Source: Allacma fusca | Taxonomy: Eukaryota > Arthropoda > Collembola > Symphypleona > Sminthuridae | Length of the DNA: 64,000 bases | Assembly: GCA_947179485.1 (NCBI GenBank) | Contig: OX359245.1 | Coordinates: 28,383,067 to 28,447,066 of the forward strand | Reading direction: 5' to 3' | Shown: positions 12,510-62,810 of the stretch, piece by piece | How positions within the stretch are numbered: the first letter of the stretch is position 1 | Layout: each line of letters begins with the position of its first letter | Notes under the pieces: model-generated | Told to the model about the DNA's origin: nothing | What the model saw: the letters and a program-made list of their open reading frames with translations, nothing else | Databases searched by the model: none | Program-made: the position numbers and the translations under genes

Positions 12510-13165
12510 ATGAAGTTGATTGCTCATTTTTACCAGTCCCAAATATTCATTGCAGTGTTTTCGTTCGTCTCAATTGTTAGTCAAGAAATTAAACACCACT
12601 GCGTTCATGGCCAAAACGAATTTTACAGTAACTGTTGGGAGGTGTACGATGGGGACTTGAAATGGGCTGCTAGTGCTGATGATCTGCCTGAGCTATTTAG
12701 AGACAGTCTTCGGGGCAGGGTTGGCAATTGGCAAGAAATGAACTGGCCGTTATTGGTTAAAATCCGGTTCTTACCGGTTGGGCCAATTGCTTGGGTTTGT
12801 ATAAAATGGTCGTAATTAATATTATCCAAATAAATCCACTGTCCAATAAAAACCGGTTTTAACCAAAACGTACCACCGGCTTGGCTAATATTACGCATGC
12901 ATGAACACAGGGTATCCAAGTGGTCAGAAATGGTCTGGTTATTATTGGTTAAAATCCGGTTCTAACCGGCACCGGACCTGTTGTATAGGTTGGTATAAAA
13001 TGGCCATAGTTAATACTATCCAAATAAGTCCACTGTCCAATAAAAACCGGTTGTTACCATTTCTTGCCAGTGGCTTGGCCTTTATTGATAAAATCCGGTT
13101 TTTTGCCAACCCTGCTTCGGGGTCTTCGTTTCCAACCGCAGCACAACCTCAACATACTTTGGTAA
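12510..13165 (+). pseudogene. Small secreted-type protein ORF, split by a hAT MITE
   Basis: ATG at 12510 begins a hydrophobic N-terminus (MKLIAHFYQSQIF, then FSFVSIVS) that looks like a signal peptide. A short acidic Cys-containing region follows (about residues 28-65). The frame runs into the MITE at 12716 and would stop inside it. The coding bases before the element (12510-12715) plus those after the second target-site copy (13123-13165) total 249 nt, divisible by three, ending in TAA; so the insertion splits what was a continuous 82-codon frame. The paralogous unit A also begins MKLI and ends with an FQPQH segment in the same relative frame. Family and function are not recognised. It may be pseudogenic, or the exon may never have been translated. 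Confidence 0.45.
12716..13114. mobile_element. hAT-type MITE with 8-bp target duplication
   Basis: The element is 399 bp with perfect 12-bp inverted termini CAGGGTTGGCAA / TTGCCAACCCTG and the 8-bp duplication CTTCGGGG at 12708-12715 and 13115-13122. The interior is dimeric: two related blocks of about 200 bp, each with AAAATCCGGTT, TATAAAATGG, TCCAAATAA and CCACTGTCCAATAAAAACCGG. No coding capacity. Confidence 0.93.
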
Positions 13166-13190
13166 ATTAAATAGCCTGACGGGGAAAATA

Positions 13191-13945
13191 AATCATTTAA
13201 TAAGAGATAATATTGCAAAATAAAAATGAGTAATTTTTTAAAAAGTGACATTACTCCCCAGACTTTTACCATTTTTACTACTTAAGCTTGAGGCAAATGG
13301 GAAAAATTATATGAAAATATCAGAACTTAAGCTACCCCGAGTACGGTTCCAAACACGATGTTAATTTTGCGCAAGCATAATGCTAAAACACGACACATGG
13401 ATAAAAATGTAAAAAATTGCTTCTCCGTAAACGCAAACAAACTACAATAACAGTATTTCGAGTAATACCTTTTACCTGGGAACTCCCACAGTTCTAATAT
13501 AATCAATTCAGTACAGGCTAATTCTAAGTAAAGATTTATTGCTGATCTCATTCACAAACTTTCATACATTAATTTCCTGTAAGCTTGAAATATAATTTCA
13601 TAGATACGATTTTAGGGTTAAACTAATCACGTACAAACAAGTAATGTAGAAAATCCTAAAATGGTAAGTATTTAAGTTGTTGCTAGTTCTGTAGACATAT
13701 GCTGATAAATGTGTACCAACAACAACGAAAAATAAAAAAATGAATGTCTTACCTAAAATGTAAGGAAGAAAGTAGGAGAGAAAAATGGGTAATGAATTAC
13801 GAAGATATTACTGTTTGGATCCAGACAACATAACTTGTGACTGATACTTGAATCGCTTAGCCAAAATATGAGAAATTTTCTTTTTGATAGTGGAAGCGAC
13901 TGATTGTGAGTATGCCATACCTTCAGTCAGAGGAAACTGATTCTC
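13191..13945. other. Intergenic, no gene seen
   Basis: AT-rich sequence between duplication unit B and the 3' end of the intact SMYD gene. It presumably contains that gene's 3' UTR. No repeat or domain was recognised. Confidence 0.5.
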
Positions 13946-15962
13946 CTAAAATTTGAGAGCTTCTCGTAAAAACATTTCACACTCTTCGGATTTGCGAAGA
14001 TCAAATTGTTGACATTGTTGAGACAGCTGCTGATAATATAATGCCGAGGACAACTGGTATTGTACACCAGCTGTAAATTATAAAATGATACAAATGCATA
14101 TTTTATGACCATAATTATCCGTAAATATTTTGGGATCAAAATTACCTCGACTGCAAGTGATTCCTGGAGTCAATAAATCCAGGATTGACAACAAATGCTT
14201 CCCACATTTGACAAAGTACTCACTCAACTCCAAACTCATGGTAGTTTCTCGATGGCATATCAAGTATGCGACCACATGCTCCATGACACATTTAATTATC
14301 CAATGGTTTGGATGCAAAGTGACCCCACTAATTTCATTGACCAAACTTTTGCAAAAGTCGATGAACCTCTCGTCAAAAGGTTTCCTTCTGTACCAGCTTG
14401 CTTGTTTATGGATCCTTTGCTGAAGTTCCTTAATAACTGGTAATATTTCTTTTGCCAATTTGATTTTTTGACAGCAGGTACATTTCCAACGCGCATCAGC
14501 TTCAACATTCAAGGGATCCTCGGGTAAAAAGTAGCCCTCGGTCTCGTTTCTCCGGCATGCTTTGCAAACTACCCCTGACATGTACGTCCCTAACTCAGTT
14601 GGATCCTGACATCGAGCACATTCGCATCGGAAATATCCCTTCTGTTGAATTAATTCTCGACGTGCCAGAGTAGCTTGGTCAATAATAGGCAGCCAGTAGG
14701 AATGGGTCAAAGGCTCGCCCTTCTTGACCGCACGTGTTGTTCGTATTCGAATTTGGTATTCTGAAATTGGAGTTATGGTCCAGTGGCAGTTCGGAATGCA
14801 AGAATGGTTTATCCGGCTGGCTTGTAAATATAGGCCTTTGACGCAGCGAGTTGAACAAAAATCATTACTGTCAAGGCAAGTGATGATCTTATTAAAATAA
14901 ATTTTTATAACAATATGACCCGTGAACTGACTAATAAATTATAATAATTTTATTTTTCAGTGAAATCATATTCCTACCTGGTTATATTTTCCGGTCGCGG
15001 GCCAGAAAAGCAATTGATGCAAAAAATTCTGTGCAATTTGGCGATCTCCTCCGTATCAAGTTCTAAACCCTCAACATAATCTAGCAACCACTTGAAGGCA
15101 CTCTCCAAACCCTGTGGCCAATCATCTGGTGGCAAGTTGAATTCGGAGGAGAGCTCCAAAACTTGTTGGTACTTGTCAGGATTCCATTTTTTGAACATGC
15201 AAATTCGAATAAACATCACGACGTCTTCTCCGAGAAATCCTAGACTGGATAGCTGGCTGAACATCTCATTTGCAAATATCTGACATTCATTTTCCGCGTG
15301 TACTGCAAGCTGCAATATCATGAGAATGATTATTCAACTTCCCTCATGGTGAAATCCTCCGCAATATCATGCTTATGACTCAACAACTTACTGTTTCGCA
15401 CCGCAAGCTACAAATCGGCCATTTGCATCGCGTGCATCGTCGACCTCTCATGGAGATCTGCCACTCTTCCTCAACCAATCCGCAAGTCAGACAATATACC
15501 GGATCCTCGAACGTAAAAGGACAAACCACCACTGGATTTTCGTCAAGAATAACAGTCCCCGGCTTGATGTTCCTCGTGGCAACGAATCCCTGTCCGAGAA
15601 CAGAATCCTCCACTATTTTAAAATATGGACAATTTTTCTGATGCACCTTCCAATCCTCCCTCTGATGCTCTACTGAGCAGTACGATACGGACTGACAGGA
15701 ACCACAGCGATGGGGCGCTTTTGCTCCACAAACGGCGCAAACCTATTCCTAAAAATCGAACCAGAATTAAAATACCTCAGCAATTTGTACTCCGTCTTCA
15801 ACATACTTCCATACATACAAGCGCCCAAGATCAGAATATGTCTCATCTAATACAGATATGCTTTGATAATGAAAATATCCATTAGAAAGGGATGTTTTGA
15901 AATATTTTATAACTCCAAACGGGAAACCAATATCTACGAAAATACAACTTTTACCTTACCAT
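13946..15962 (-). CDS. SMYD-family SET and MYND domain protein, 510 aa
   Basis: Five coding exons fit with matching phases: 15960-15962 (ATG alone), 15392-15742, 14978-15309, 14146-14867 and 13946-14070 (stop TAG); 1533 nt in total. Residues 3-40 form a MYND zinc finger (C-X2-C, C-X2-C, YC, H and H-X3-C). The SET core NHSC-X-PNC lies near residue 250, followed by a GEPLTHSY motif. Post-SET cysteines (FRCECARC) are near residue 310, and an alpha-helical C-terminal region follows. SMYD proteins are lysine methyltransferases of histones and other proteins, in cytoplasm and nucleus. The catalytic motifs seen here are complete, but the substrate is unknown and arthropod SMYD paralogues are numerous. 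Splice sites are GT-AG throughout. The start codon ends precisely at a GTAAGG donor, as in the dead paralogue at 2813-4465, which supports this start. The two copies are about 11 kb apart on one strand. Confidence 0.87.
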
Positions 15963-16159
15963 TTCTACAAACTTCCTATAGCTGCAAATGATTAAATCAA
16001 TAAAATTTATGGAAATTCCGAAAACTCGAGTAAACCCTGACAATTTGAAGAACTTCACGCTAGCCTTAACGTTAATGCAATGCTCACAAGTGACTTTATA
16101 GTTGCGTCAAATTCCAATTATGCACAGACATTGAGCTCAATGTCGTCTATGCCAAGGAC

Positions 16160-17159
16160 CAGAGCTGCGCACAAGTACAAGTAGTACACGAGTATTTCAA
16201 GTCAAGTTCGCGTTCGGGTCGTGGTCAAGTAAATAAATTTAAAACCATGAACGGTTCGGGTCGTGTTCAGGTATTTCATCGACTTGACCATGATTTCTTA
16301 CCTCAAGTCAAGTTCGTGGTCAAGTATAATTATTTTACTTGAACCATAGTACCTGGTCATGTTCAAGTAAATATTAAAAAGTACTTGACCACGAACTTGA
16401 GTTTTTCGTGTACAAGTTCAAGTAATTTTGTTTGTGCAATTCTTCATGGCTGAGGGAGTTTTCAATTCACTTACGATTCACTGTACTAAATGAAACTTAA
16501 AACGGCATTTAATACATCACTTTAAGCGGCATTTGTTAATTTGTTCGTGTACACAAATACAAAAGAAAGCTCAACATTCATATGGCTCCGTGGAAATTGA
16601 TTTAAAAATGTTAGCACCCATGTTTATAATAGTATGTGACAACAAAACCTAAAAGGAGTTCTGTGTCCCCGAAAATGTCAACTGAGTCACCAGACCCACC
16701 CGGTACACGAAATCAGAGTAGATCTGCAGTGTACAATCGTTCTACATTCATTGAAAGGAACCAAAAATACAACTATTATTTTTAGAGGCGGTTGCTAGCA
16801 AAATGCTGGGTGAAACCTAGTGTGTTAGAAACCCAGGTTCGCTTTCATTAGAAATATAAATTCAATAAAACTTAAGTATTTTGATGTCCAATGGATTACT
16901 TGAAAGTACTTGAAAGTTCAAGTTCATGGTCAAGTTCGGGTCATGGTCAAGTCAAGTTGAAGTTGGACCCGAAACGCGCGTATAAAATCATGGTCAAGTA
17001 ATATGAGAATTACTTGAAAACCCGAACTTGTTTCATTCAAGTATTACTTGAACTGAAAATGTCAAGTTCGGGTAATCTTGAAATACGTACTTGAGAAGTC
17101 GGGGTCAAGTCAAGTTCGTGGTCGGATCTTTATAAATACTTGACCCGAGCGCAGCACTA
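16160..17159. mobile_element. Non-autonomous hAT-like element, TCAAGT-word array
   Basis: The element is 1000 bp with termini CAGAGCTGCGC and GCGCAGCACTA (imperfect 11-bp inverted repeats) and a perfect 8-bp duplication CCAAGGAC at 16152-16159 and 17160-17167. The outer thirds are dense degenerate arrays of TCAAGT / ACTTGA with GGTCAAGT, TTCGGGTC and TTCGTGG. The centre (about 16440-16890) is unique AT-rich DNA. No transposase frame. Confidence 0.88.
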
Positions 17160-17498
17160 CCAAGGACCAACTGCGTAACGTTTTGGCTTGGCCCTTAAAA
17201 CCCTGGAACTCACGAACTTCGTATTGGTGTACTTATAGATGTGAGATCGGATATTATTATTATTTATTTTTTTATTTTTGTGTCGGATATTTAACACGCA
17301 ACGAGTCAGTACGCCTGTTTAGTTGATTCAAACGTTTTGACGACGATTTTTGTCGGGTAAACGTTAGTGTTTGTACCATTTAGTGTAATTAAGCGTTTAG
17401 CTTCTGGTTGGAGTACGAGGTGAATGCTAAAACCGAAATAAAGAACGACAAGTATTGGGCCGTAAGTGGGAATAGGTCAGTAGTGTGGCAAAATATTT

Positions 17499-23747: not shown

Positions 23748-24221
23748 TAGTGTTCGGATCGATTCAATTTGATTCGAATTTTTCAATTTGATTCAATTTG
23801 AACCTTGAATTGAATCGTAAAACCGATTTTCGATTCAATTTGCCCCAAAGCAATTCAATTCGATTCAATTCACTCAGTGAATCGAATTGAATCGTAAATC
23901 GAACGATTCAAGTGGAAAAATACAAAATTTTCCTTATGTTACTGGAGTGTCGTATACATATTATAAAGGGTATAGTAAAAGCTACGCTAAAATAACAAAC
24001 GTTGTGGTAAAGGTACTATTTGGACTTTTAATATGCGGAAAAAAGTACCCGTGCGCAGCCGAAGCGGTTTTGATGAATTGTTTGAATTGCAATTCACATG
24101 ATATGATTCGATTCAGTTCAGTACCCAAATTGAATCATTCGATTTGATTTTGCTGCAAATCGAATGGAAATACTACTGAATCGAAAATTTCCAATTCTGA
24201 ATTGAATTGGTCCGACCACTA
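23748..24221. mobile_element. Non-autonomous hAT-like element, GATTCAATT-word array
   Basis: The element is 474 bp with inverted termini TAGTGTTCGGATC and GGTCCGACCACTA (two mismatches) and a perfect 8-bp duplication CTCCAGAA at 23740-23747 and 24222-24229. Both ends are degenerate arrays of GATTCAATT / AATTGAATC; a short unique core lies at about 23930-24060. Same family as 27284-28077. Confidence 0.9.
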
Positions 24222-24229
24222 CTCCAGAA

Positions 24230-27283: not shown

Positions 27284-28077
27284 TAGTGGTCGGACCAATT
27301 CAGTTTAAATTGCAATTTCACAATTCAATTCAATTCAGTTCAGTCCAATTCAGGGTTTTTTCAATTCAATTTGATCGTTTACTGAACCGAATAATTCAAT
27401 TCACCTGCTGATTCGAATTGAATTGTTTTCTTTGAATTCCAATTCAAAACAATTTCAGGCTGAATCTAAACCGATATTGTAAGGATAAGTTAAACACCTT
27501 CTTTGCGTTAACGTAACCATCTTTCAAACGTATGTGTTAATATTTTTAGGGTGGCGTCAGCCCCCTTATAAGATAGTGTTGTCCATTGATGCTTGGAGCT
27601 GTTTGTACCGACGTTTTCCTCCGAATCAATTTTGTTCAAACCTTTTGTGAACACTCTTTAGGCCACTCTCTTGGAGGAGTTCGTTATTGGTTGAAATTGT
27701 AATGCGTAAACTGTTCCACCGATTTCAATGGAATTTTTTACATTTAAAAGTCAGTACTACGTAAAGTAGCTTAATTTTACAAAATTTTATTTTTTCAAAA
27801 TGTTGCATTTTTATTTTTTAATTGAGCTCAACATAATACTATAAAACGGGTAAGGAGAGATGACCTTAGCTGACGTGCCACCCCAGCCACATTTTCAGTA
27901 TTTAAATATGTCCGGCAAACCAAATGGTTTACAATTCAGTTCAGTTAATAGATTGAACTGAATTGAATTGAATTGTTTTTTACTGAACCGAATTGAAACC
28001 CCAATTTTAATCCAGTTCAGTATTCGAACTGGATTGAATTGTAAATTTTGAATTGAATTGAATTGTTCCGACCACTA
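27284..28077. mobile_element. Non-autonomous hAT-like element, AATTCAATT-word array
   Basis: The element is 794 bp with termini TAGTGGTCGGACCAATTC and its complement (one mismatch) and a perfect 8-bp duplication ATGCGGTT at 27276-27283 and 28078-28085. Outer arrays consist of AATTCAATTCAGTT words. A different inverted-repeat element (27549-27884) is nested in the centre. It sits in the second intron of the split receptor gene. Confidence 0.92.
27549..27884. mobile_element. Nested MITE-like element, GGGTGGCGTCAG ends
   Basis: Termini GGGTGGCGTCAGC and GCTGACGTGCCACCC are near inverted repeats, preceded on the left by TTA. The right two thirds matches 33490-33886 (shared TTTTGTGAACA, GGCCACT, TTGGTTGAAAT, TGTTCCAC-GATTTCAATG and GAGCTCAACATAA). 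GGG termini beside TTA/TAA suggest PIF/Harbinger. Confidence 0.6.
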
Positions 28078-28299
28078 ATGCGGTTGAAAATATTATACCA
28101 AGTCCGTGGTCAATTAAACGAATTTCAGAAAATCCTATTGTTTTTACTCTAATACACATTTAACTTTTAAACAGGGACATCAAAATTCAAAAGACTGGTA
28201 ACAAATTTATGGAAAGAGCCTTACAGGACGTGTGCGTGGAACTGAAAAAGTCTCAAATCGAAATAGAGTTCCTCAATGAAGTCTACTCTGTCTACAATT

Positions 28300-30459
28300 C
28301 ATAGCTGTTCACGAGCTCCCCAAGTCCAGTCTAGTCTATTCTTAATAAAACAAGGAAAACTCTATTCAAGTCCTATTCTATTCCAGATCACTTTTAGCGG
28401 TTCAAGTCAAGTCTATTCATAGTCCAAAAATTTACGTGACTTACTATTCAAGTCTAGTCTAGTCTCAAGTCTAGTCCGCAATATATGTGCTATTAGAGGT
28501 GCTACTTAAAATTCACATACTGATCTTGAATTTATTACTGATATTTCTAGATCGGTATAACTAAGTGAAACACTTGGAAATGCATGTCAAATGCGTAATA
28601 AACAAAAGTAGTTACAAGGGAGGCTTCACACACTAATGTATTTTTTCCTATCAATTCTATCATAGATTCCAAATGTCCGCAGTGATTTTCAGGGTTCCTT
28701 GACAAATTTTTGCTAAATACCGAAATTTAAGACCGAGTTAGACCAAATTGGGCAAATAAAATTTACTTTTTAAAGTAATTATCTTAAAATGTCGAACCAG
28801 GTTAGAAGAACCTCCTGCATTGCTGCTACTATAAACGTACTGCTTGTTACACAATAAGCACAGTGCAAGAACTCCATTTTGATTTTTGTATCATCGAATT
28901 TATGTCCAACATATGTAAAAGCAGAGCTTCTGTTGGGGACAAAATTCTTGTCCCGTCCCCGTCCCGATATTTTTTAAAAACCTTTGTCCCCAGTCCCGTC
29001 CCGACAATCGGGATACGGTGACGAAAACCGTGTCCCCGTCCCGTCCCCAAAAATTAATAAAAACGTTGTCCCCGGTCCCGTTCCAACAGTCGGGACACGG
29101 GGACAAAAACCTTGTCCCCGTCCCCAAAATGTTTAAAAAACATTGTCCCCTGTCCCGAAAATTGGGGCATGTGAATAAAATTCCTGTACCGTCCCGATAA
29201 TTACTAAAAACATTTTTTTTGTCCCCGTCCCGTCCTGAATATAATGGGGTCAATTTTTTTGTCCCCACCCCGTCCCGAATACGACATGGGACAATTATTT
29301 TGTCCCCGGGGACGCCCCGTCCCGGTCCGTCCAGTGTCCCGACGGGACGTCCCTGTCCCCGGCAGAAGCTCTGATTCAATGCAAGTTTTAGTTCTTGATA
29401 ATTCGTACTTAATGTTACCATTGCTGTATTGGGCAATTCGTAAGTATTTCCTGATGAAGATTCGCTTATGTTTGATGGAACAGCTAATTTAGTCGATTCA
29501 AAGAGGATCGTTTGATGTACTGGCAATAACACGTTTGTTTTTTGTTACCATTTTTGAAATATTTGTCGGTGTCATCTGCTTCTGGTTTCTGAGAGGTTTT
29601 CGTGACCTGCTCTTGGTTATCATTGCTGGTTTATCACTTGTGGGCACAGTTTCAACATTTTTCTCGATAGGTAATTTTACTATAAGTGAAATATAATTCA
29701 GATTCAGATTTATTAGGATTCTTTTCGGGTGGCTATATCATCCATGCAAAGCTAATAATATAAATTATATAGAGAGTTGCCAGGAAAGTATTACTGGAAA
29801 TACAATTATGAATAAATTTAAACTTAACTAACTTTAAAAATTTTTAGCTACAACAACGCACCTACAACCTACCCAAACCTCATCTGCTCCTGTGACCACA
29901 ATGTTACCACCAATTGTTCTTTCTGCAATATAAGTGAAATAAGTATGCGCAGATTTTTGTCCTGGTTTTTGGGTTTCAACCAAAGCTGGATTTGGTTTCA
30001 ATGGTTTAAGATGAGCCAATCAATTCAAATTAGATTGTTGCATTACAATGAGGTACGAAACGGTCGCACATTAGAAATGATAAGAATGCTGAAAATTGCA
30101 TCTCAAAGGGCCCCAAACGATCATTGTACATTAAATTACTCCAAAGGTATGTTTTCCTGGTGTGCGATTGATCTGAGCGAGAAACATGAACGCTGTGCTG
30201 TCGTCGCAGGGTTTAGTATTCGGAACATGGTTTTACTCAAGGTTTTGAAAAGAGGACTTGAATAGACTTAATTTTTTTACAGTCAAGTCTAAGTCTATTC
30301 CTAAGAATTTTTAGCAGTTCAAGTCTAGTCTACTTCTAGTCTAAATTCTCAGGTGTCTTTGGAGTCCAGTCTAGTCTAATCATTTTCGAAAAATAATGTC
30401 AAAAGTCTAGTCAAATCTAGTCATTTCTAGTCTAGTCCGACTAGACTAGAACAGCTATG
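28300..30459. mobile_element. hAT-type element inserted in receptor exon, CTAGTC-word ends
   Basis: The element is 2160 bp with perfect 11-bp inverted termini CATAGCTGTTC / GAACAGCTATG and a perfect 8-bp duplication CTACAATT at 28292-28299 and 30460-30467. Both ends (28330-28490 and 30260-30450) are degenerate arrays of AGTCTAGTC. The interior is about 1.7 kb of unique sequence with a nested GTCCCC-word element (28922-29373). A hydrophobic stretch near 29530-29670 could be a captured host fragment. No transposase recognised. Confidence 0.9.
28922..29373. mobile_element. Non-autonomous element, GTCCCC-word array
   Basis: The element is 452 bp with perfect 11-bp inverted termini CAGAGCTTCTG / CAGAAGCTCTG. 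The interior is almost wholly degenerate repeats of GTCCCCGTCCC and GGGACA words, making a GC-rich island in AT-rich DNA. The 8-bp flanks (TGTAAAAG and ATTCAATG) do not match, so no target duplication is visible. It is nested in the 28300-30459 element. Confidence 0.8.
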
Positions 30460-30844
30460 CTACAATTACATGCTCAAAGTTGAGTGCTTGATCCTCTCTG
30501 TGGCGGGAATTTTCACAGGGCTGAGATTTTTTTTCAATGATTTAATGTTTTCACTGACTGTATTGGGATTCGCCATTTACGTTATAGTGATATACATATC
30601 ATTGTTTGGGGATCTGTACAAAGTTCCGGAGGAGATGGCGCGGCTCAAAATGCAAGTCGAGTACGTGACTCAAACTCCCGGGATTTCAAAATCCTCCCAA
30701 ATGTGTATTAGCAAGTACCTGAAGGGGATTCCGGTTTGTGGGATCAAAGCGGGTAGTTTCTATATTCTCGATAGGTTGTCAGGCCCTACCTTTGTGGACT
30801 TTGTGTGTCGACAAGTTATCTCTTTGCTGATAGCATTTAAATAG

Positions 30845-33289: not shown

Positions 33290-35031
33290 GGATGGAAGAC
33301 CCCAGGTGCTGATCATCAATCATAGGGGATGTTCAGTAAACAGTTTAAAAATAGTAAACGATTTTGAAAATAGTTACCGTAAATGTTTTCAAGAGAAATC
33401 ATGTGTTGAATGACCCCAATATATTAAAACAGATTTCGTTACCGGCTCCATAGGAGAAACAGCACGTATGTGTAAAGATGTTTTGGAGATTTGGTGACAG
33501 GCGCCACAACTTTAGCTGTACTCCAATAGAACCATAATGTCATTGGCACTGCAATTTGGATTTTATGTAATTTTCGGACATTTGCCTTCATGACCGATTT
33601 TCTTGAAAAATTTTGTGAACATTTTTTTGGCCACTTCTAGGATGAGCTCGCCATTGGTTGAAATCGGTTCGCGTGTTTTGTGCGTACAAAAATAAAAACG
33701 AATACTTCTCGAACTGTTCCACTGATTTCAATGAATTCTTGTTCCGCACACTGCAGTCAGTACTACTAACACTATTTATTTTTTAAAAATCGTAATTTTT
33801 AAAAACTCTACCGGAAATTTTTGAAATGAGCTCAACATAAGAGAGTAAAGGGAGTAATGAGAGATGGCCGTTAACTGACGCCGCCCTAAGCGACAGAATA
33901 TGATTTTTTGAGAAGTCGTGAGCCGAGTATCTACCTATTATTTTCATTTTAGCAGCTGTGAACGAGTGGAATGTTCCCTTAAATTGTATAATATTACCAA
34001 TAAAAAATGTTCTAGAATATTGGCAGGTTGCTTCCCAAGAGTCTTTGATAGTCTATAATGATTTGGGACCACTAATTGAACATTTTCACGAGGTACGATC
34101 TCCAGTATCATATTACGACAGCAGATGGACAATGAAAGAGTTGCGCAGTGCGACTGTGAATCAGCATCTCCTGTAATAAAAACTGACCCAACTCAACCGT
34201 CTTCTTTGAGCAGATCGCAGTCGATCTGAAGGAGTGTTGTCTTTACAAAGCGATAATCTGGTTGCCATGTCCTGTTACGGACTCCAAACCTCACTTATAG
34301 GTTACAAGGTTTAGACAAACTCTATTTCATACTTATAGTAGTCTCATTGGGATTTTCCTTGGCACAGTATTACTAGAATATCTGGTGTCAAGTATTTGCT
34401 TCCTATAAACTGATTCACTTCACGGTCAAACGAGTTTATAGTAGTGTGTCAAATATGAAACAACTACATTTCTACTATCCAGCTGTAAATGCACACAACA
34501 AGTTTTTAAACGAATGCTGTAAAACTAATTTTGAAAATAAACAAAAACCTCTTTGTATCCCAAAGCTTCATACAAGAAAATAAAGAACGCATTGCTTTGC
34601 TCTTTTGAGTAATTACAATGCCGTGCTATATAATGTTACTTAAATTCTCATTGTCATCATATTTAATTACATATATGTATATCCATTCTTCCCTATATAT
34701 GCATAACCAGTAAGCTTCGCCCCCTGCCGGAGTGTCCCAGCAAAAGGAAAGGGCCTAAACATAACTTAACCTGATAACAGTACATATTCGAGTGGGCACG
34801 ACAGAATTAGTGTATAGTCAGTTTATACTAGAATAATATTTTTATTAACTGATTGTATGCAGATATGTAATTACACATATAGGTACATGACTGATCGAAA
34901 ATATTTAAATTATGCACATAAAATATTGTGGATACATCATTGATTTTCCACTTGCTAATAAATCTTAGGTTAAAAAAGAAAGTATAATTTCTGAAAGCCC
35001 GGTGTTCTACAAATACACAAATTGTAGTCGA
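33290..35031. other. Intergenic with one old repeat
   Basis: Contains the MITE-like copy at about 33490-33886. The remaining 1.1 kb is AT-rich; 34705-34745 has a short GC-rich patch (GCTTCGCCCCCTGCC) similar to the GGGGGCGAAGC patch at 6563. No gene was found. Confidence 0.5.
33490..33886. repeat. MITE-like repeat, copy of 27549-27884 element
   Basis: The right end CTGACGCCGCCC is followed by TAA and is the counterpart of the GGGTGGCGTCAG terminus. Internal blocks are collinear with the nested copy. The left end is degraded, so that border is approximate. Confidence 0.5.
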
Positions 35032-37920: not shown

Positions 37921-40900
37921 TTTCTTTACAATTTATTCCAATATTTTGATCATAACAGTTGACATTGCAGGGGACGTATCCAAGGAGTCCCTAAAAATCA
38001 AATCAATGAAACATTCCACAATAATTAAGGGTATAAACTTTTGTTCCAAATTTCAATTAAAAAAACAAACGTTGATGCTTGTTGGTGGTAAAATTAAAAT
38101 GCTTTTACAAGAAGCACCGCCAGAGGTCACTCCCATAAATTAAATATGTACAGCAAGACTGAGTCTAAAGCGAAGCTTGCAAACCTTTTGACAGCATCAA
38201 AAAATCCGAAATTAAAAACCAAAAATAAATCACAATTCTCCTGGTTTTTGGGCGCATTGACAATGTATGTACATACACTGTTTCACCAAATGCTTGCTTT
38301 ACACCTTTGTTTTTAGTGCCTCAACAGTTCTGTGATTCATTTTTTGTTTTGTTTTACTTCAAACAATTTTATTTTACAATTTCAAATTTTGCATAAAAAT
38401 TTAACTCAAAATTTGCTCTTTTCAGAAAAAACCTCCTGACTGTATCTCACTTCCGTTACTCCTGTGACTATTTCTCGGTATTTTTGAGCTGGTGAACCTA
38501 CCTGAAAAAAATTCTAAAAACTTACAAATTAGGGTATATTTTGCACTTTTTCCAGTGCCCCAATAAAGGGCTAAGGGAAACAAATTTTAAGACACAGCCG
38601 GTACACAGAGTTATACTTCGCTCTGTACTAACTATGCTAAAAGGAGAAAAAGCTGACTCTCGTAGTAATTGCACATATTACGGTACGAACGAGTAAAATT
38701 AGGGATGATATTGTTTATGAAACTTTGATCCATTACACAGACATTACTCTTGTAAGGTGGTCCTTCTCGCAAGCTAGGGTTTCGTATGTACACTTACCCG
38801 CTCGCTCTGACGCTATATCTTTCCTAGATTTTGAAGAGGTTAATATTCCCCCGAAGTCAAAATAAAGAACTTATTGAGCACCAACATGTCCAATGCAAAA
38901 TAATAATTATTATTATTATAGTCAACTTGCTTTGTGATGAAATTAACGTCCTAGCTCGTTAACTTGTTTGGTCCTTAGGGAAGACGATTGTAAAAGTCAA
39001 GTGCGTTAATCGTGCTGATGCAGCGAACCTAACACTGATACAGACACATACGGGACTCCAATCCCAAGAACTTTGTATTCGTAGAATACTATAGAGGAGA
39101 ATTCTAATGAACCTTTTTCTCTGCCTGCATTATTTATTACTGCAAACGCAAACTGCCTGAAAGCCCCTATACGCACATACTATATGTGTACATAAATGAG
39201 GCCGAAAAAATTGCTCTGATATGAAAGCCTACTATGTATCTGCCTAATGCAAAAACGCACTCACCACTAAGTGTATATAAGCTCTTTCATAAGCCTTTTT
39301 TTCTCACATTTATCCTAGTACGTAGTACGTACATCTGTGAGTGAGTACATACGCACTTGATAATAAAATTCTACTGACTCTGCTACATACATGAGCGTTT
39401 CAACTTTTGTCACTCAATACTAATCACTTGAGTGTGTATAGAGCGTGGACGAGTTTCTAACTTTCCCAAGTCCCTATCAGTTAATGCCACAATTTATTCC
39501 TCTCTGAATCCAAACCAGCATATGTGCATAGATATGATTTTGCATATAAGACCAACTATAGAATTAAAGTATACTGTATGTAAGGACTTACGTATATCTT
39601 GTGGATAATCACAGTACAGTGCCCTCCAGCATTAGAGGCTATTGCGTGAGCATTTTATCTTTAGCAGCAAAATTATGTGGACAAATTCCTATTTACCACA
39701 ATGTTAATTTTTTATAGAAGTTAAATTGTACTCTCACAAGGACTCTCATATGGCTTGAACATTTCAGACCTGTGGGGTGTATAGTTGCAGCAAAAAGTTA
39801 CTTTACATATAATTACTAACACTGGAGTGTACTCAGCTATTGAAAGAACGCTGCGGCTATAGCTGCTGGGAAGTATTTACTCGATTAATATTTTGTATAA
39901 TATAAAGTGGGAAATAAATTGTGCCTTCAGTGGTAGGGTAAAGCTGGGCGAAACAAAATGTGAGAATTGCTATATTGTATATTGCGATGAGTCTCATTGT
40001 CAGCTTTTTGCTTTGCCTTAAATCCATTTATTCTACTCAGTATTTATTATATAAATTCACAGTTTTATTTCACGATTAGAAGTTGCTTACCATGTGGTGA
40101 AACATCCGAATTCCTTACTTTGCTTGCATTTGGACACTGGAATTTGTCTCCTATATTGTTAGATTTTCTCTAACTGCTATTGCTGACTTAAGATGATTTT
40201 AGACGTAAAGGAATCCCCATAAAATTTGCTACAACCGTTTTGTTTTGAAATATTTTTATGAACGAAATGTCATTCATTAAAAAATTACGATGTGGTCTCC
40301 TTTCCCGTATCTTCTCTTCTCGAAATGAAATTTCTTGCTTGTTTTTACGTGTCATATCCGCAATTATCAAACGATAGGCCCATGGAAAGCCCTTGAAATT
40401 TCTTAACATTGAACGTCAAAATAAATGTTAGAAAATATTTTGTCTGAACAACAATTTTTTATGCTGACAATCCTAAATGGAATCTCAACTTTAATTCACG
40501 TTCTTGAGAATTGTGACCTCAATTTTTGACCTACGTCAATGAAACAAATTTTAAAACATTTGGAAGACTTTCCTTAAAAATGATGGGAATTATATTTTTT
40601 GTGACGCTGTCCCTTCCCTTATATAGGCAAATTTATATTCTGATATAGAACACCTGTATGTTGTACGTAGTACCCCTCATGGGTAAATAAATCCTGTACC
40701 TGGACCTGTTTCTGGACCCATATTTTATGGAACGGATATTTTAAAATATCCGTGAAATGTACCTGTACCCAAAAGAACCCAAATACTGGACCCATCTCCT
40801 TCCTTTAAGATTCTCGAATTGGCTATAACCTATAACTCATAATCCACACTAAGAAAATTAATTGTTGCAATCAAATTTCATAATAATCACGGATGCAGTA

Positions 40901-43338: not shown

Positions 43339-43830
43339 CAGTGCTGCCCTAGTCTAGTCCGACTAGACTAGGAAACTAGGAAATTGAATAGAATAGCCAA
43401 GGTGTAGGAGCAAATTGAATAGACTAGACTTGAATAGCCTTGCTGCAAATTAAAAAAGAATAGAATAGACTAGAATAGTCAGAATGTTAACATAGAGGGA
43501 ATATACTAGAATTGATTAGTGCAATAGCACTATTCCCTCGTCTAAGGAGGATTGTGAGCCTTTCAACTGCACTATGGGCACAATCAAATATATGACTAAA
43601 CTTTGCTTTTATCAAGTAGGAATCCGTTTCCTATTTTGTCAGTTCTGCCTACTTATGTAATGTATGTCAGAAACATATTGCGGTGCTGTACTATTTCTTT
43701 TTATATGAAAATTCTTCTCACACTTGCCATTTCATTAAATACTTAGTTAGCGTTTCTAATGGCACTTTTAACCAAATTATCCTTATTACCAATTTATCCA
43801 AGTTTCATGAGGATCCCCTTACATCCTTTG
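43339..43830. repeat. Dispersed repeat beginning with CAGTGCTGCCCTAGTC
   Basis: About 490 bp collinear with 62356-62810. The first 190 bp is a CTAGACTAG-word array with hAT-like ends: CAGTGCTG-CCCTAGTC on the left and, in inverse, TAGTGCTATTGC at about 43523. The homology continues about 300 bp past that right end (TTCCCTCGTCTAAGG onward), so the repeated unit is larger than the word array. No 8-bp duplication was found. Confidence 0.65.
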
Positions 43831-48118: not shown

Positions 48119-49148
48119 TAGGGATGCCAAATATCACCACTTTGCTTATATCGAATTTCTCGGTCTCGCCAAAAACAGTTTGGGCGATATATCCCGTATC
48201 GCCGATATATCGCAAAACCCACGAAGCTTTTCATTCATAAATATAATAACCAGGAAAAATAATAATGAAGTTGAATGGTAAATAGAGCAAGATTAGTTCT
48301 CAAAAATGGCTCCACAACAATGAATAAAATCTAATGATTAAGCTAATACTTTTGTACAGATTGATTGACTAAAATTTAACTAAGCATTTCGGTTTAATAG
48401 TAATTACCTGGGAGATTATCTTATTCAAAAACGTAAGGATATACAGTACTAGCATGCGGACAAAATATTGTTAGCAATAAGGTTTTCAAATTTTTCCAGA
48501 CAGTAGATATATGTAAATCCTTAACTAAAAAGCTCGTGCCGAATTATTTGAACTTGTTCTAACAACAAAACCTGATATTGTACTCAAGTCAAATGGCCGC
48601 AACAAGGTATTTATATAATGTCTTCCGAAATTAGATTTTGACTTGACATATTATAAAGGAAGGTTTGAAGATCCCGATTTATTCTCCAGATATTATTAGC
48701 CACAGTCTGACCTCCCGTCCCTAAATACTCACTGTAATATCATTTTACTTGTAGACTGCGTTAATATAGCTACGGCAAATCTTTTCTAATTTATTCATCT
48801 AAACATTTATCCCGTAACTATGTAGCCTGAATTAGCAGCTTAAATCTAAAGTTCAAATCCATTTTATTGCAGTTTTGAAAACCTTCGAATTGATACAAAG
48901 CTGCAAGGCGGCTCCTTTGTATTTGTACTCATAATTCACTCACGCTTATTTGATTGGAGAAATTACAAGCGTGGGATAAAGGGCCCAGTTGTCATTCCTG
49001 CTTTCCAAATTTCCGCATTAAAAAGTTTTTCTGTTCTTGGTGGATACAACGACAATTTTTGCCATAATTATCACCTAAAATATCTCCGCTCAGTTTGTTG
49101 ATATTTGTGCAATAATACCGTCTCGCAATCTCATCATTGGCATCCCTA
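48119..49148. mobile_element. Non-autonomous hAT-like element, ATATCG-word ends
   Basis: The element is 1030 bp with perfect 12-bp inverted termini TAGGGATGCCAA / TTGGCATCCCTA. Flanks GTTCCTTG (48111-48118) and GTTCCTGG (49149-49156) match at 7 of 8 bases, fitting an 8-bp duplication. The left end carries repeated GATATATC / ATATCG words (48150-48235). The rest is unique AT-rich sequence. It ends 16 bp before the TATA box of the next receptor gene. Confidence 0.85.
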
Positions 49149-49164
49149 GTTCCTGGTCAGAAAG

Positions 49165-49172: not shown

Positions 49173-49230
49173 CGGATCCGACACAGCGTGGGCCGATTCA
49201 TTTCCACGTTGTCAGTCCTCTTGTGAAACA

Positions 49231-50950: not shown

Positions 50951-52911
50951 CAGAATGGCTTGATTTAAATCACGTTGATTTAAATCTGGATTTAAATCAA
51001 GATTTAAATTACTTGATTTTTATCAAATAAATCATTGATTTAAATCAAAATTGACTCTTCAACTTTTGCGGTTAGGTAAAATTTAATTTTACGTCTCGAA
51101 ACGTTGTAAAACTCAGGTTCTTGTGTTTTTATGTATTTTGGTCGTGATACTATTTTTTATTTTGATAATTTTCAGGATAATTTGTGTACGTTGCCCATTG
51201 ATTATCTGTCAAGCTTGCACAGTGCCATAAAATTTGCATATGAGCTTCTGCTGGGGCAATTGTTATGTCCCACAAAATATTTCGTCTCTTTTCGAAATCC
51301 AGGGACAAAAATAAATACCCCGATCCGGTCCTGAAATAACACGGGACCATATTTATGTCCCAAGTTGTTTCGTCCCTAACAGAAACTCACAATCAGTATT
51401 TACAAAAACATCCCAACATCAAATCTTTCTAAAAGAGTACCATTTAAAGTGGCAAGACTTGACAGTGAATTTTGCATTTTTTGAATTTTATACTCTATGC
51501 TTCATAAATGTTATATCTACATTTATTTAAATGTTGCACGGAGATAATCACACTTATTTAAACGGATTATTCCACATCTGCCCCGACATAATCTACCATC
51601 CCGTCCCGAAACACTATATATGTACACACTAAGCACATTTTATAAAATGTGTATTGTGTGTACATACATATGTATATAAATAAAAATCCAAATGAGACTG
51701 TTGGTATTTGTCCTACACAGCGTTTGACTTTAAAAACAAAACTCAAATCGACATTGTTACAATTTAAAAAAATACCATTGATATTTTGAATTGGCATGTA
51801 ACCAGCTTTTTATTTCATTAGGCCAGTGCCTGTCATGGGAACAGAAAAGTCGTCCCCGTTCCCATTCCCGTTCCCACAGTTCGGGTTTGGGTACAAGGCA
51901 GAACCCAATTCCCAAATTGCACCCGAAATCTTGTGAACAAATGTACCGCACCCAGACTCGAAATTTTTAAAATTGTAGCACCCAAACCCGTTCCTGTTCC
52001 CAAAAATTAATTTTGGGTGCACCCAAACCCGTACCCAAAACCCTGGAACCCGTTCCCGTACCCGAAACGAAAGTTCATATATTCAAGGATAAAAGTTATA
52101 CATTATACATGTATACTTATTGTTTCAATTTTTGCTAACAATGGATACACACAATTCCACTCATTCTATTTGTTATATTTGATTCTACTTAATTAATTTT
52201 GTAATTTTTAAGTCACCTTACTACTGCTAAGCACAACATACGCATATAATTAATTTTTGTCACATTTCATCATTCGACGTGGGATGATCTGTTCAAACAA
52301 AGAGCGTTTGCCTCTAAACTACAACAACGACACAAAAATAGTCGGTCACACCACACCAAAACAAATCAATCATGTAATTATCGTTACGCTCGCAAGATTG
52401 CTCTGTACACGGGTACGCATGAACAGAAACGGGTTTTTGAGCATACCGTTCCCGTTCCTGTTGGGTACAGATCGCATTCAGCCTGTATTGCACCCGTTCC
52501 CATATGGGTTCCTGTTCCCACATACTATAATGGGAAAGGTTGGTTCCCAAACCTGTACCCACACTTTTGGGTGAAAACATTTTGCACCCATATGATACCC
52601 GTTCCTTCACCCAAACACCCGGGTGTGACCCGTTCCCATGACAGGCACTGCATTAGGCAGCTGACTTGCCTTTATAATTTTCTCTCAATATATTTGACTA
52701 ATAATTGTTTAAGTTTCTTTGGTGCCAACAGTGTACAATATTATTAGTAAAATTAAAATCCAAAAATTTGTAAGGTAGTTCTGTCGTACGGTACAATGAA
52801 TTTAAATCAGAAAATATTGGTTTAAATAAAAAAAAATCCGATTTAAATCAAATAAATCCGATTATTTTGATTTTTTTTTTTGAAAAAAAATCAAAATAAT
52901 CAGCAACCCTG
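50951..52911. mobile_element. Candidate hAT-like element, GATTTAAATC-word ends
   Basis: The left end CAGAATGGCTTGATTTAAATC and the right end (complement) CAGGGTTGCTGATTATTTTG are related inverted termini, and both ends (50951-51055, 52795-52911) are arrays of GATTTAAATC words. The flanks ATATAAAC and ATATACTT match at only 5 of 8, so the target duplication is doubtful. A younger element (51824-52650) is nested inside, and a GTCCC-word patch lies at 51250-51380. Confidence 0.6.
51824..52650. mobile_element. Non-autonomous hAT-like element, CCGTTCCC-word array
   Basis: The element is 827 bp with perfect 19-bp inverted termini CAGTGCCTGTCATGGGAAC and a perfect 8-bp duplication CATTAGGC at 51816-51823 and 52651-52658. 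Both ends are degenerate arrays of CCCGTTCCC and ACCCAAACCCG words; the centre (about 52075-52420) is unique AT-rich DNA. No coding capacity. Confidence 0.94.
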
Positions 52912-53734
52912 ATATACTTAAACAACTGATTATATATTGCTCATAAGACTTCAGCTCGCATTTTGAGAGGCATTTACTTTACCCAGGACTGGAGTCGGAT
53001 TTTTGTAAATCTCCCTGGAAGATCTTTTCTGAATTTCCCTGCTGAATTTTATGTCCCTGCGGGGAGGTCCTCAACGATTTTCAAAATCTCTGCAAAAATT
53101 TTTGACCGTAGTAATTTTTATTTTGGTGGAATCGGTTTGGCTGCTTTATTATGTTAGTGTAAAAAAGATGACCTAAACAAGTATGGGGCACCACTACATT
53201 ACTACGACTCCCCCGGAATCAAGACCTTTTTTCCTTCGTGTCTGAGGACATTCATACGTAACTACAAGCATGATGCTATCGCGTGATTGTTACAGCCTAA
53301 TCGTACAAACAATATGTTTTCAATGTTGGAACTTAAATAATGATGATAACTCTGAGTTATAACTTGCTCTATACCATACACGGTTACATAATGATTCATA
53401 TGTAATTTACTGTAATGAAAGAATCATTAAACCTTGTTAAACGCCATGAGCAAATATGATGTCCTAGAAAAATCCACACACGGCTAAAGTGAATACATTT
53501 TACCAGGATTTGTAATTTGTTAACATTAAATAAAAAGGAAATGAAACTAGGATAAGTAATGATTTGTTATTTTTTTTCAAAAAAGAAGTATTTGTTCATC
53601 ACTGTCATTAAACTGTGGGTAATTCCTTAAACAAATGTTTTTTAAGGAAAGTTTAGTTTGTTTTAGTTTTGTATTTTATATAGGTTTCGAGTCTATTATA
53701 TTTTTTATGTATGTATATCTGAGCTCATGGAACC

Positions 53735-55470: not shown

Positions 55471-57034
55471 TTGAGACTCGAGTTGCCCCATCATGAACTG
55501 AGAGTCCACATAGACTCATATACAAGAAAGACACTTTTACTTTCAACATGAAAAGGAAGAAGAAACCCAAGCCCGAGCACCACATGTGTTCCCCTTTATA
55601 AGTTTCACTCTCTTCCAAAATAAGACTCTTTTCCACTACGCTCAAGTGTGCGGCCTATCATTTACATGAAGATACATTCGTCACCCCTGCACATCGCTGT
55701 CTCTTCAGTTCCCCTCTTCCAAACTCACGAGACTTGGCTGTGTGACTGTACGGTATGTTTATGTAAGGATATTATGTTGTGCTTGTAAATTAGTGTACAT
55801 TCTTTTACTTTTGTTTTCACTGTAGTTAAACCCCATAGGTTTGAGGTTTTCCTCCTCACAATTCAATTATATTTATGTTAGGTGATTTGGGGAAGGTCTC
55901 CACTATGGATGACCATTGCATGTATCTAAACCACGAATAGCAGTAAGAGTCAGTTAAGTATAAGGTGTTGTTTAACATTTTAATATATGGAATATTTGCA
56001 GTACGCTATTCTTGAACATCCAGAATATTATTGTCTGCGGACATAAATAACAGTTTTCATACCTACAATTTACACTATATTTTCTGTAGTTACTCAGAGT
56101 ACATTTGTCTAGATTTACCAAGGGAATCCTACCTCCCTCTCAAGGGTAGAGACAGTTTAACACTCAGATTGGAACCTAGAATAATTATGAATGTTTTAAT
56201 AGTGGAATTCAATAAAGTAATGCCGTGTGAAAAATATATGAATAGAATCATACACAATAATTCATTTCATTATTTTTATTAAATCATTCTTATAATATTT
56301 CTCATTTACAAGTCACTCGTTTGTGTTCCTGGTTACGGATTCGACGGATGCCTCAACCTTGCCGACGCTCATGTTTCCAAAATCCACTACACACTTTCTT
56401 TTATTTTCCCATTTTTATAAACTTGTGCCCATTTTAGATCCGTCTGATTGATTATTTCTTGAGGCAGAGTAGTCAAGTCAACATTATAATTTGCTGTGCA
56501 AATAATTAATTTTCAACTAATGTTGCTTCTATAAATTATTACTTACTAAAAATATTGTTACTGGAGATATTTTAATTTGTCATTCTCATTTAGCATTTTC
56601 AGAAGTATTACTCAATTAAAGATTTTATTTTCAAGGAATAAATCTGATAGTAGTTCTAATAATTCCTTGCATCTCGTTTTGTGAACCTTGTTTTGTGCGC
56701 AAACGTTGGGCACAAACATTAGTACACAATGTTTTCTTCAACACATTTTGTACGCAGAAGTGGTCCGGTTATGAGCAGGATATTTTGTTCACAGTTGTGA
56801 ATAACCATTTCCGTGTTGAATATTAGAGAACGGCCACAAAGTTCAACATCAAAAAAGTCAGTGGGTCCCTGCGCTATTTGATTGCGTTGAGTGTCTTAGT
56901 CGATGGGTCTTTATCCTGTTTGATGTTGCAATCATTTCGTGATCAGATCTCAAGGCGTAACCAGGAATCCTCCTTAGCGGCGAATATTAAAAAAAGCATT
57001 GAATTTTTAACATTTCAAAATTTCAGTTTCGCAC

Positions 57035-57180
57035 TGGTGCCCTTGTCTAGTCCGATTTGACTAAGAAAATAATGAATAGACTAGACTTATGGTTAAGGAG
57101 GAGGAAAATGAATAGACTAGAATAGACTAGTTGTATCTGTATGCGTGGTTTAGAAAGACTCGATTAGACCAGACTAGCCA
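57035..57180. repeat. CTAGACTAG-word repeat fragment
   Basis: Related to the arrays at 28330, 30260, 43339 and 62356: TGCCCTTGTCTAGTCCG then several GAATAGACTAGA words. The termini are not clear and no target duplication was found. Confidence 0.55.
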
Positions 57181-59972: not shown

Positions 59973-60714
59973 GTTAGTTTCAATAAAATGATTTGTCCGA
60001 ACCAAGTAGGTAAAATCTAGGCTTTTACAGTGAGTCTCCAGAATCAAGAGAATTTGTTTTGTTTCGTGTCTCGGTACACATGCATACATTGATACATGAA
60101 GATAGCACATGATTTTTAGTCCACCAGTCATAACCTTAGAGCCTACAAAATTCGTGTAAAAAATTTGTTTGCAGTGCTGGAAATTAAATAATAATGTTAG
60201 CTATGACATAACTCCCTATCACAGTTGAATAATCATCTATTCAAATATAATTTAATGGAAATTAACCTTGTCCAACCCCATGAGCAAATATATTGTCCTG
60301 GAAAACATCGTAAGAAACAGCAACCGCTTACGTATAGACAAACGTCTATAGTGTGCCTATTCGAAAAGGCTTTACTACAGTATTACCCAACTGAGGTAAA
60401 AGAGAATGAAATGCACGTGACATTGGGTAAGTATGTCATATTTATTAACGTGGCAGTTTAAGTTGCAATTTAACATAATTGGAAATTCAGCGTAATTTTT
60501 GTGAGTGTACATAATATTTACAGGTACATATGTATTGATACCCTAATTGTATAAAGGATGTTCACCTACAAGGAGACAAGCAGGCATAATAAATATTATC
60601 ACCTGGCTCCTACAAAAATCTATTTTCACCCGGAAATAAAAACAAACTTTTAAATCCATCTGTTTAAGTGCAAGATCACTCAACATACAGTGAATGCTTG
60701 GCAGAGGTTTTTCC
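59973..60714. other. Intergenic, no gene seen
   Basis: Upstream region of the intronless ionotropic receptor. No promoter element or repeat could be supported. Confidence 0.45.
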
Positions 60715-61110
60715 CTATTTGAATGCAATGAGTAAAGTGATAACTGATCGACACACAAAGTCCACGATTGTAGGGCCGGAAGATCTACCGAGAATATAGA
60801 AACTGCCTGCTTTGATTAAACACGCTGGAATTGTTCTCAAGTACTTTTTAATACACATTTGGAAGGATTTTGAAAACCCGAGTATTCGGGTAGTCTTGTA
60901 CTCGACCTGCACTTTGAGCAGCGCCATCTCCTCCGACACTCTGTACATTGTACATGCCCCCAAACAAGAACAAATTTATCATAGCGTGAATGGCGATTCT
61001 CAGCACTGCCACGGAAAACACTGTCTATTTGAAAAAGAATTTGAGCCCTGTGAAAATCCTCGATCGATTTGAGACTTCCTCAGCTCCAGGCATACGTTCT
61101 TTAAGGCTCT
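60715..61110 (-). pseudogene. Gustatory-receptor exon 3 fragment
   Basis: Homologous to the last exon of the split receptor at 26040 (shared SEEMALLKVQVEY-type segment, then KAGSFYIL, GPT and VDFVCR, and the same LLIAFK ending). The frame has an in-frame TAG in the region matching the helix before the loop, a small insertion that shifts the frame just before the conserved E-E-M-A, and a deletion of about 75 bp upstream of the GATTTTCACAGGGCT match. Exons 1-2 are absent. The stop TAG after AFK is retained. Confidence 0.85.
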
Positions 61111-61869
61111 CCTTAGATTTACGAGATTTTGATTCTTGATGACCTTTCTTTAAACAATATGCCTACAATTAGGTATAATTAGAACAGTAATATTTCTTCA
61201 ATATTAATAATCTTTCTTTCTTAATATATTTGTCATTTTTTGAACAAAATCAATGTCCAGTTTACCTAAGCTTACAAGACGTAGAACAATAAATACACAC
61301 GCAACAACGCGAATTTGCAATGTTTCAGAGATTACAAATTTAAATTAAACATTTCACAATTGTAAACTAATCATTCTAAAAATGTCCCTAAATCGTGGCA
61401 ATGTATTCAAACTGTAGTAAATGTACAGTTGCAGCTTAAGTTGCAGTTTAACAAATTAACAAATGTCCCAAATGTATTTTCAGATATTTTTAAACCTGAA
61501 AAGTTGTTTTGACTTTCCATTGCTATCCCCTGGCGACTGTCGGTTTCAGTTAAGTTCAAAATGTCACAGGTACAAAGGGAGTTAGCGACGAAATTGTCGA
61601 AAATTGATTATACGCAACAGTTTACTTTATTGGGCCACTTTTAGCATCGGTGCTTTCACATTGAATCCTGATGACAGACTCCCAATGAATATTTACATTA
61701 ATGCAAACTTAAAACAATGAAATAATATCCTTCATATTATATTTCAATATCATCAATATCCCCTTTAAACATATTTGGAGACTTTGGAGAGGAATTATTT
61801 TGAAGACACCAAATCAGCTGAGCATGTAGCCACAATTTTCAAAAGTCTGATGTTGATGTGCGTCAGTGC
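61111..61869. other. Intergenic, no gene seen
   Basis: AT-rich sequence with no supported feature. It ends in the target-site copy GTCAGTGC of the next element. Confidence 0.45.
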
Positions 61870-62353
61870 TAGTGTTTCTGTTCGGTATCGGGAATTCCCG
61901 AGGTTCCGGTTCGGTTTCGGTTCCGGGTCAACGATTTAAAGAACCGTTAAATTTCGGTCCGGTTTCGGGTCAACAATTTAAAGAACCGTTACATTCGGTC
62001 CGGTTTCGGGTACAAAAATCAAAACCGAAAGTTTTCGGGAAGGGTTTGTTAAAGCTGCCATTTTGGATGAAAACGCAAAACATGTATTTGTCAAGCATTT
62101 GTCAACTATCATTTGAAAACGCGACACAACTTTGACTTCCATGAAAATGAATCCTATGCATTTTCTTCTGGTTCAGGAAGGAACCGGAACCGGTTCGGGA
62201 ACCGATTTTATTTTCCGGATCGGTTCCGGGAAGGCAAAAATGACCCGGACTCGAACATATCGGTTCCGGTTTTGGGAACTGAAATGGGATTTTTTTCGGT
62301 TCGGGTAAACCAGTCGGGTCGAGTCCATGTTTTGGTACCGTTCAGAAACACTA
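61870..62353. mobile_element. Non-autonomous hAT-like element, TTCCGG-word array
   Basis: The element is 484 bp with perfect 11-bp inverted termini TAGTGTTTCTG / CAGAAACACTA and a perfect 8-bp duplication GTCAGTGC at 61862-61869 and 62354-62361. Both ends are arrays of GGTTCCGG, GGTTTCGG and TTCGGG words around a unique core (about 62040-62170). It inserted at the very left end of the repeat at 62356, whose first bases are part of the duplicated site. Confidence 0.92.
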
Positions 62354-62355
62354 GT

Positions 62356-62810
62356 CAGTGCTGCCCTAGTCTAGTCCGACTAGACTAGGAAACTAGGGAA
62401 TTGAATAGAATAGCTCGGGTTTAGGAGCAAATTGAATAGACTAGACTTGAATAGCCTTGCTGCAAATTAAAAAGGAATAGAATAGACTAGAATACTCTGA
62501 ATGTTAACATAGAGGGAATAGACTAGAATTGACTAGGGCAACAGCACTATTCCCTTGTCTAAGGAGGATTGTGAGACTTTCAAATGCACTATGGGCACAA
62601 TCAAAAATACGACTAAAATTTGCGGTTATCAAGTAGGAGTCCGTTTACCATTTTCTGTTCTGCCTACTTATGTAATGCATGTCAGAGACATATTGCAGTG
62701 CTGTGCTATTTCTTTTTATATGAAATTTCTTGTCACACTTGCCATTTCATTAAATATTTTGTTTTTTATGGCACTTTTAACCAAATTACCCATTAAGTTT
62801 CATCAGTATC
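62356..62810. repeat. Dispersed repeat beginning with CAGTGCTGCCCTAGTC
   Basis: The second copy of the unit at 43339-43830; it starts with the same base and shows high similarity through the CTAGACTAG array and a further 260 bp of unique sequence, with small indels. Both copies begin exactly at the hAT-like terminus. Confidence 0.65.

Follow-up and report, generated by a model that had tools for sequence, protein, structure and literature searches.

Transposons of the hAT superfamily, Ac/Ds included, leave 8-bp target-site duplications (TSDs). They characteristically have short, imperfect inverted repeats that start CAG or TAG, carry short subterminal repeats, and depend on a transposase, encoded in cis or in trans, with a BED finger, an RNase-H-like core and a C-terminal dimerisation domain. 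According to the passages of the cited articles on which we draw throughout, Ac has 11-bp terminal inverted repeats (TIRs) and multiple AAACGG hexamers in ends of about 200 bp, to which its transposase binds cooperatively (PMC3260210). The BED fingers of the Hermes transposase bind AAG(T/C), of which one end has 17 copies and the other 14, and Tol2 has sites of the AAG(T/C) type in its ends, with AAGTACTT directly after the TIR (PMC10368747). Both ends of Herves carry repeats of C(G/A)ATTCAT, the site bound by its transposase (PMC3143072), and Kat1, a domesticated yeast hAT, has the subterminal repeat AATTCA in six exact copies (PMC4763223). More generally, an N-terminal BED domain is predicted for hAT transposases (PMC10368747), while hAT-derived binding domains (CGGBP/hAT-19) show diverse, protein-specific DNA preferences and have been domesticated many times; in all four hAT-encoded proteins that yielded a motif (variants of one element included), this motif matched subterminal regions of the element encoding them (PMC8097297). 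Here, we analyse a cohort of hAT-like elements with word-filled ends in a stretch of 64,000 nucleotides from the collembolan Allacma fusca (contig OX359245.1, positions 28,383,067 to 28,447,066), hereafter the window.

The cohort is a real and well-delimited set of mostly non-autonomous hAT elements, of a kind already known but with new members. We consider it quite probable that they are non-autonomous or decayed hAT elements belonging to about seven to nine lineages, partly nested within one another, and that the short words filling their ends are likeliest bound by the BED fingers of cognate transposases. The elements, their copies and two associated features are given below (strand only where one is assigned); the element nested in E5, the old element hosting E8, and the further copies of E1, E2 and E10 are additions to the preliminary description of this DNA.

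12716..13114, E1: TIR CAGGGTTGGCAA, TSD CTTCGGGG, word AACCGG; two diverged tandem halves
2516..2812, E1b, second copy of E1: 89.6% identical over 298 columns; right terminus kept, left end missing
16160..17159, E2: TSD CCAAGGAC, imperfect TIR (9/12)
9794..9854, E2b, truncated right end of E2: 86.9% identical over 61 bp; stops at the terminus of E2
23748..24221, E3: TSD CTCCAGAA, TIR TAGTG(G/T)TCGGA, words CGATTCA and CAATTCA
27284..28077, E4: TSD ATGCGGTT, TIR TAGTGGTCGGA, word CAATTCA (17 in the arms, 0 in the core)
28300..30459, E5: TSD CTACAATT, TIR CATAGCTGTTC, words CTAGTC, CTATTC and TCAAGT
28741..28890, minus strand, broken and partial BED zinc finger in E5: Pfam zf-BED, 24.5 bits (cut-off 20.6), E-value 2.7e-5, profile positions 17-39 of 44
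28922..29373, E5n, GTCCCC element inside E5: TIR CAGAGCTTCTG, no TSD seen, 82-bp tandem unit
30425..30451, quasi-palindrome directly inside the right TIR of E5; a similar motif lies directly inside the left end of E10
48119..49148, E6: TIR TAGGGATGCCAA, 7/8 TSD; ATATCG without significant enrichment
50951..52911, E7, old element hosting E8: ends CAGAATGGCTTGATT and CAGGGTTGCTGATT, arrays of GATTTAAATC, no clear TSD (word counts and arm densities taken over 50952-52913)
51824..52650, E8: TSD CATTAGGC, TIR CAGTGCCTGTCATGGGAAC (19 bp, exact), words CCGTTCC and TGGGAA
61870..62353, E9: TSD GTCAGTGC, TIR TAGTGTTTCTG, words CGGTTC and TTCCGG; sits at the tip of E10
62356..62791, E10, CTAGTC/CTATTC family: left terminus CAGTGCTG, right terminus not pinpointed
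43339..43782, E10b, second copy of E10: 90.3% identical over 444 columns; tip uninterrupted
57031..57130, third left end of the E10 family, diverged: 75% identical over 103 columns

All seven perfect 8-bp TSDs claimed in the preliminary description, as well as its single 7/8 match, are present where it had placed them. A mechanical scan for elements of 100–6000 bp with a perfect 8-bp duplication and a TIR of at least 10 matching bases out of 12 returned nine places in the window, whereas 15 Markov-type shuffles averaged 1.0 and never exceeded 2. Six of these nine places are claimed elements, and the remaining three lie at 10451 (AT-rich), 23775 (within E3) and 63302 (in a large palindrome at the window's end). 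At 16160, the TIR of E2 matches at only 9/12 positions, a class that yields about eight chance matches per shuffle, so that the support for E2 rests on its array and on the second copy of its right end (9794-9854) rather than on its TIR. The termini had been described as CAG or TAG, which fits the TSD-bearing elements other than E5, the start of the latter being CATAG; the hAT-like nature of the cohort is backed by the 8-bp TSDs, the short TIRs of the CAG/TAG type and the partial zf-BED match in E5. For E5n, E7 and E10, whose TSDs are either not seen or not assessable, hAT membership rests on the ends and arrays.

The arrays themselves were assessed by comparing the commonest 6-mer of 12 stretches (E10 entering in both copies) with 1500 length-matched windows outside the elements. 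Its count exceeded all 1500 windows in 11 stretches, the exception being E6 (ATATCG, fraction 0.15), so that the ends built from a family word, as proposed earlier, are confirmed for all stretches but the one with ATATCG, where the excess is not significant. When the elements were instead compared with their own first-order shuffles, 9/11 top 6-mer counts did not exceed the maximum of 300 shuffles, while E2 and E10 did; this result is weaker because such a shuffle retains the composition of the array. For eight words, the counts were further broken down by arm, one mismatch being tolerated for four of these words; this gave arm densities of 31–85 per kb, core densities of 0 in five cases, 1.2 in E5 and 12.7 in E4 (this tally assigns no core to E5n), and densities of 0.2–8.9 per kb outside the elements. 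In E2, for example, the exact word TCAAGT occurs 27 times in the two arms (12 + 15) and never in the 400-bp core. Moreover, each word is found only 0–2 times in the tested flanks: the arrays do not pass the termini, and therefore belong to the elements rather than to ordinary satellite DNA; arrays running on as satellite DNA were an outcome that the preliminary description had named as refuting it. The words are irregularly spaced and occur in both orientations in E2, E3, E4 and E9, and the subterminal short repeats expected of hAT elements are present throughout, E6 excepted. Two further observations concern individual elements. The core of E4 (27629-27875) partly matches 33597-33880, where neither arrays nor ends are visible by eye, and may be captured or older repeat DNA; the arms of E5 share a 99-bp repeat in direct, not inverted, orientation (28366-28464 and 30283-30381, 74% identical).

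Because E3 and E4 form a single lineage, with near-identical TIRs and related words, and because E5 and E10 have CTAGTC and CTATTC in common, the lineages are fewer than the elements. The many parallel families announced earlier thus come down to about seven to nine lineages after this grouping. Nesting is frequent (E5n in E5, E8 in E7, E9 in the tip of E10), and the uninterrupted tip of E10b represents the empty site of E9, although only 6 bp to the left of the insertion can be compared. When the flanks of E5 are joined with one TSD copy omitted, a 169-codon frame spans the insertion site; the interrupted frame (28166-28299 and 30468-30844) is probably a chemoreceptor exon. A paralogue of these flanks free of E5 exists at 60711-61154 on the minus strand, but it lacks about 73 bp around the site and is therefore not a clean empty site, while no match spanning the insertion point was found for E1. 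Regarding the quasi-palindromes, their arms reach 13 at the right end of E5 and 12 at the left end of E10, against a maximum of 11 in 3000 background windows of 45 bp; among the 21 ends examined, these two exceed the background and the left end of E7 equals its maximum. A second GTCCCC copy at about 51241-51615 was not accepted: its alignment scored 52, and the best of 100 shuffles reached 48. A marginal MATH-domain match within E7 (51153-51386, minus strand; 21.4 bits for a cut-off of 21.2) is possibly a captured gene fragment.

In view of its BED remnant, E5 probably derives by decay from an element that encoded a transposase. Exact and degenerate patterns of the ends gave no match in viral_contigs and genome_contigs, which says little since both are collections of viral and prokaryotic sequence. 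Peptide patterns of hAT transposases matched 12 and 88 stretches of viral_contigs, and none of these stretches was confirmed. Motifs of published hAT systems were also sought in the elements. The motif C[GA]ATTCA[TCA] occurs 14 times in E3 and 12 times in E4, against at most 3 in 1000 windows of equal length; the arms of E4 have the CA form only (17, with 0 of the CG form), and those of E3 have 9 CG and 7 CA forms. AAG[TC] is found 44 times in E2 (background mean 17.4, maximum 32), which also holds two sites of AAGTACTT, against at most 1 in background windows (as this is a palindrome, the per-strand count is 4 vs. 2). The earlier proposal that the words are transposase binding sites gains plausibility, by analogy, from this overlap of the words of E2–E4 with the motifs of Herves, Hermes/Tol2 and Kat1.

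In the explanation that we favour, the short TIRs of most elements would be the cutting sites, and the arms of about 120–300 bp inside them, packed with one family word, would be bound by BED zinc fingers at the N-terminus of the cognate hAT transposase, which autonomous copies located elsewhere in the genome would provide in trans. The clustered weak BED sites would recruit and hold the oligomeric transposase, allowing its catalytic domains to reach the tips. Of these steps, others have demonstrated cooperative binding for Ac and contacts between BED and DNA for Hermes; the identity of the binding protein, the benefit of many copies and the co-divergence of words and BED fingers are what we infer beyond this. 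A tuning of each word to its own transposase would agree with the diverse specificities published for hAT-derived binding domains. Several results weigh against this explanation. On the protein side, the BED piece of E5 is partial, does not fit the usual C..C/H..[HC] pattern, whose last ligand is missing, and has no match in PDB sequences or NCBIfam; zf-BED is the only hAT family matched by Pfam in 20 stretches (two of them nearly alike), and the hAT C-terminal dimerisation domain was not found in the window (best E-value 0.64) when 1529 stop-to-stop segments were searched with a home-made profile of five typed consensus lines, nor did a catalytic hAT fragment come to light. On the DNA side, no clear TSD is seen for E5n and E7, and the right terminus of E10 is not pinpointed, hence its TSD cannot be assessed. 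As for the motifs, the comparison was post hoc and involved seven patterns in 11 elements: the Ac hexamer AAACGG is enriched in none of the 11, the Tag1 motif AAACCC only in E8 and the Tag1 motif TGACCC in E9 and weakly in E2, while GTGGC is weakly enriched in E4. Lastly, about 70% of the activity of Hermes is left after mutation of the inner left-end sites (PMC10368747).

The main rival is a neutral origin of the excess copies, in which slippage and gap-repair duplication after excision multiplied an existing word, only a few copies near the TIR being of consequence. We regard this as possible but rather unlikely. It would account for the runs of period 5 and period 6, for the larger units repeated in tandem (42 bp long in E9, 82 bp in E5n) and for two features that also count against a binding function, namely that the words of E5 and E8 run mainly in one direction across both arms, and that, when copies are compared, conservation is not significantly higher in words than in spacers (four comparisons, of which two overlap; Fisher p 0.054–0.67). 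Moreover, only three Ac hexamers are reported to be required (PMC3260210), which likewise argues against a need for many sites. However, neutral multiplication fits less well with the irregular spacing and mixed orientations in E2, E3, E4 and E9, with a word common to both arms but absent or nearly so from the core, and with the coincidence of some words with motifs bound by other hAT transposases.

At face value, the TSDs might also point to another superfamily with 8-bp duplications, to which some or all of the elements would belong while being merely hAT-like. P elements, for instance, also produce 8-bp duplications, and the CATAG start of E5 departs from the usual CAG/TAG of hAT elements; yet E5 is the very element with a BED finger, the remaining TSD-bearing elements have CAG/TAG-type termini and E2–E4 carry hAT motifs, which leaves this option with a very slight chance. 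No P transposase family appeared among the Pfam matches of the 20 stretches, although no search was aimed at P. Scarcely more credible is the view that the words serve not a transposase but DNA-binding proteins of the host, perhaps hAT BED proteins that were domesticated: hAT binding domains have indeed been domesticated repeatedly, with distinct specificities (PMC8097297), but nothing within the window supports it, and the arrays are located where the transposase sites of Ac, Hermes and Herves are reported. Binding by the cognate transposase remains our preferred reading of the arrays.

A more speculative question is whether the arrays share a spacing. When the arms are autocorrelated, peaks appear at lag 1 and at the word period of 5 or 6, and the next one lies near 41 bp. 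Over seven lineages (E6 and E7 left out), lags of 20–110 and 5000 circular shifts, the best shared lag is 41, with a post hoc circular-shift P of 0.013. Individually, the strongest lag is 41 in E5/E10, 42 in E9, 42 in E8 (with a z of only 3.0) and 82 in E5n, while it is off this pitch in E2 (37), E3/E4 (72) and E1 (69); in E9 and E5n, the pitch amounts to plain tandem duplication. We consider it improbable that hAT lineages with unrelated words share an array pitch of about 41–42 bp (some four helical turns) or its double. If true, the word would be family-specific and the spacing would reflect a geometry that hAT transposase oligomers have in common. In that case, the arrays would represent an evolutionary footprint of the transpososome, their many copies stemming from competition of non-autonomous elements for transposase. 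The titles and abstract openings of the literature consulted do not name a 41-bp pitch in hAT arrays.

Elsewhere in the window, the gene content is eukaryotic and probably that of an arthropod; Pfam recognizes a SET domain, an NB-ARC/TPR protein, ligand-gated ion-channel domains and a zinc knuckle. The NB-ARC domain and many TPR repeats lie in a stop-free frame of 966 codons (35032-37932, minus strand), and the zinc knuckle in a long open frame (2-1480, minus strand) that would resemble a retrotransposon gag region. Several frames look like seven-transmembrane chemoreceptors by eye, none of the three submitted being assigned to a Pfam family, and Rfam returned no match. The palindrome at the window's end (63284-64000) is a large inverted repeat with arms of 121 and 50 nt, 89–92% complementary, which runs to the last position and is foldback-like; its apparent 8-bp duplication AGGTACCT is itself palindromic and part of the arms.

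As a whole, the window brings together, within one genome, a natural series of hAT ends built along parallel lines. The full genome would allow words to be paired with BED fingers, leading to a recognition code of hAT transposases, and would allow asking whether extra binding sites benefit non-autonomous copies. For annotation, the arrays carry a warning, since several of them resemble degenerate satellites yet end at transposon termini.

Compared with known systems, the earlier terms "hypertrophied" and "unusual" go further than the data, given the 17 and 14 sites of Hermes and the multiple AAACGG hexamers in the ends of Ac; in titles and abstract openings, no single genome is named as having many parallel families with such dense arrays of words. 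The elements resemble Ac/Ds in their short TIRs, in the multiple hexamers of their ends and in the existence of short non-autonomous forms such as Ds (PMC3260210), but differ from it by the AAACGG result given above and by the autonomous partner known for Ac. With Hermes, they share asymmetric ends, a short site repeated in both ends (4 bp in Hermes) and, at the right end of E5 and the left end of E10, a counterpart of the quasi-palindrome STR1/STR2 at bp 11-27 of the Hermes left end (PMC10368747); in contrast, AAG(T/C) is significant only in E2 among the 11 elements, and the palindromes of E5 and E10 are built of CTAGTC words. The DNA preferences of the CGGBP/hAT-19 domains fit the subterminal regions of their own hAT (PMC8097297), a correspondence established there from proteins, for which only the BED remnant of E5 is comparable here. 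Kat1 is domesticated and has just its six exact copies, but AATTCA is the core of the E4 word, even though the Kat1 passages report the repeat and not its binding (PMC4763223). Finally, the C(G/A)ATTCA(T/C/A) words of E3 and E4, with the last base relaxed here, make these two elements similar to Herves in their words (PMC3143072).

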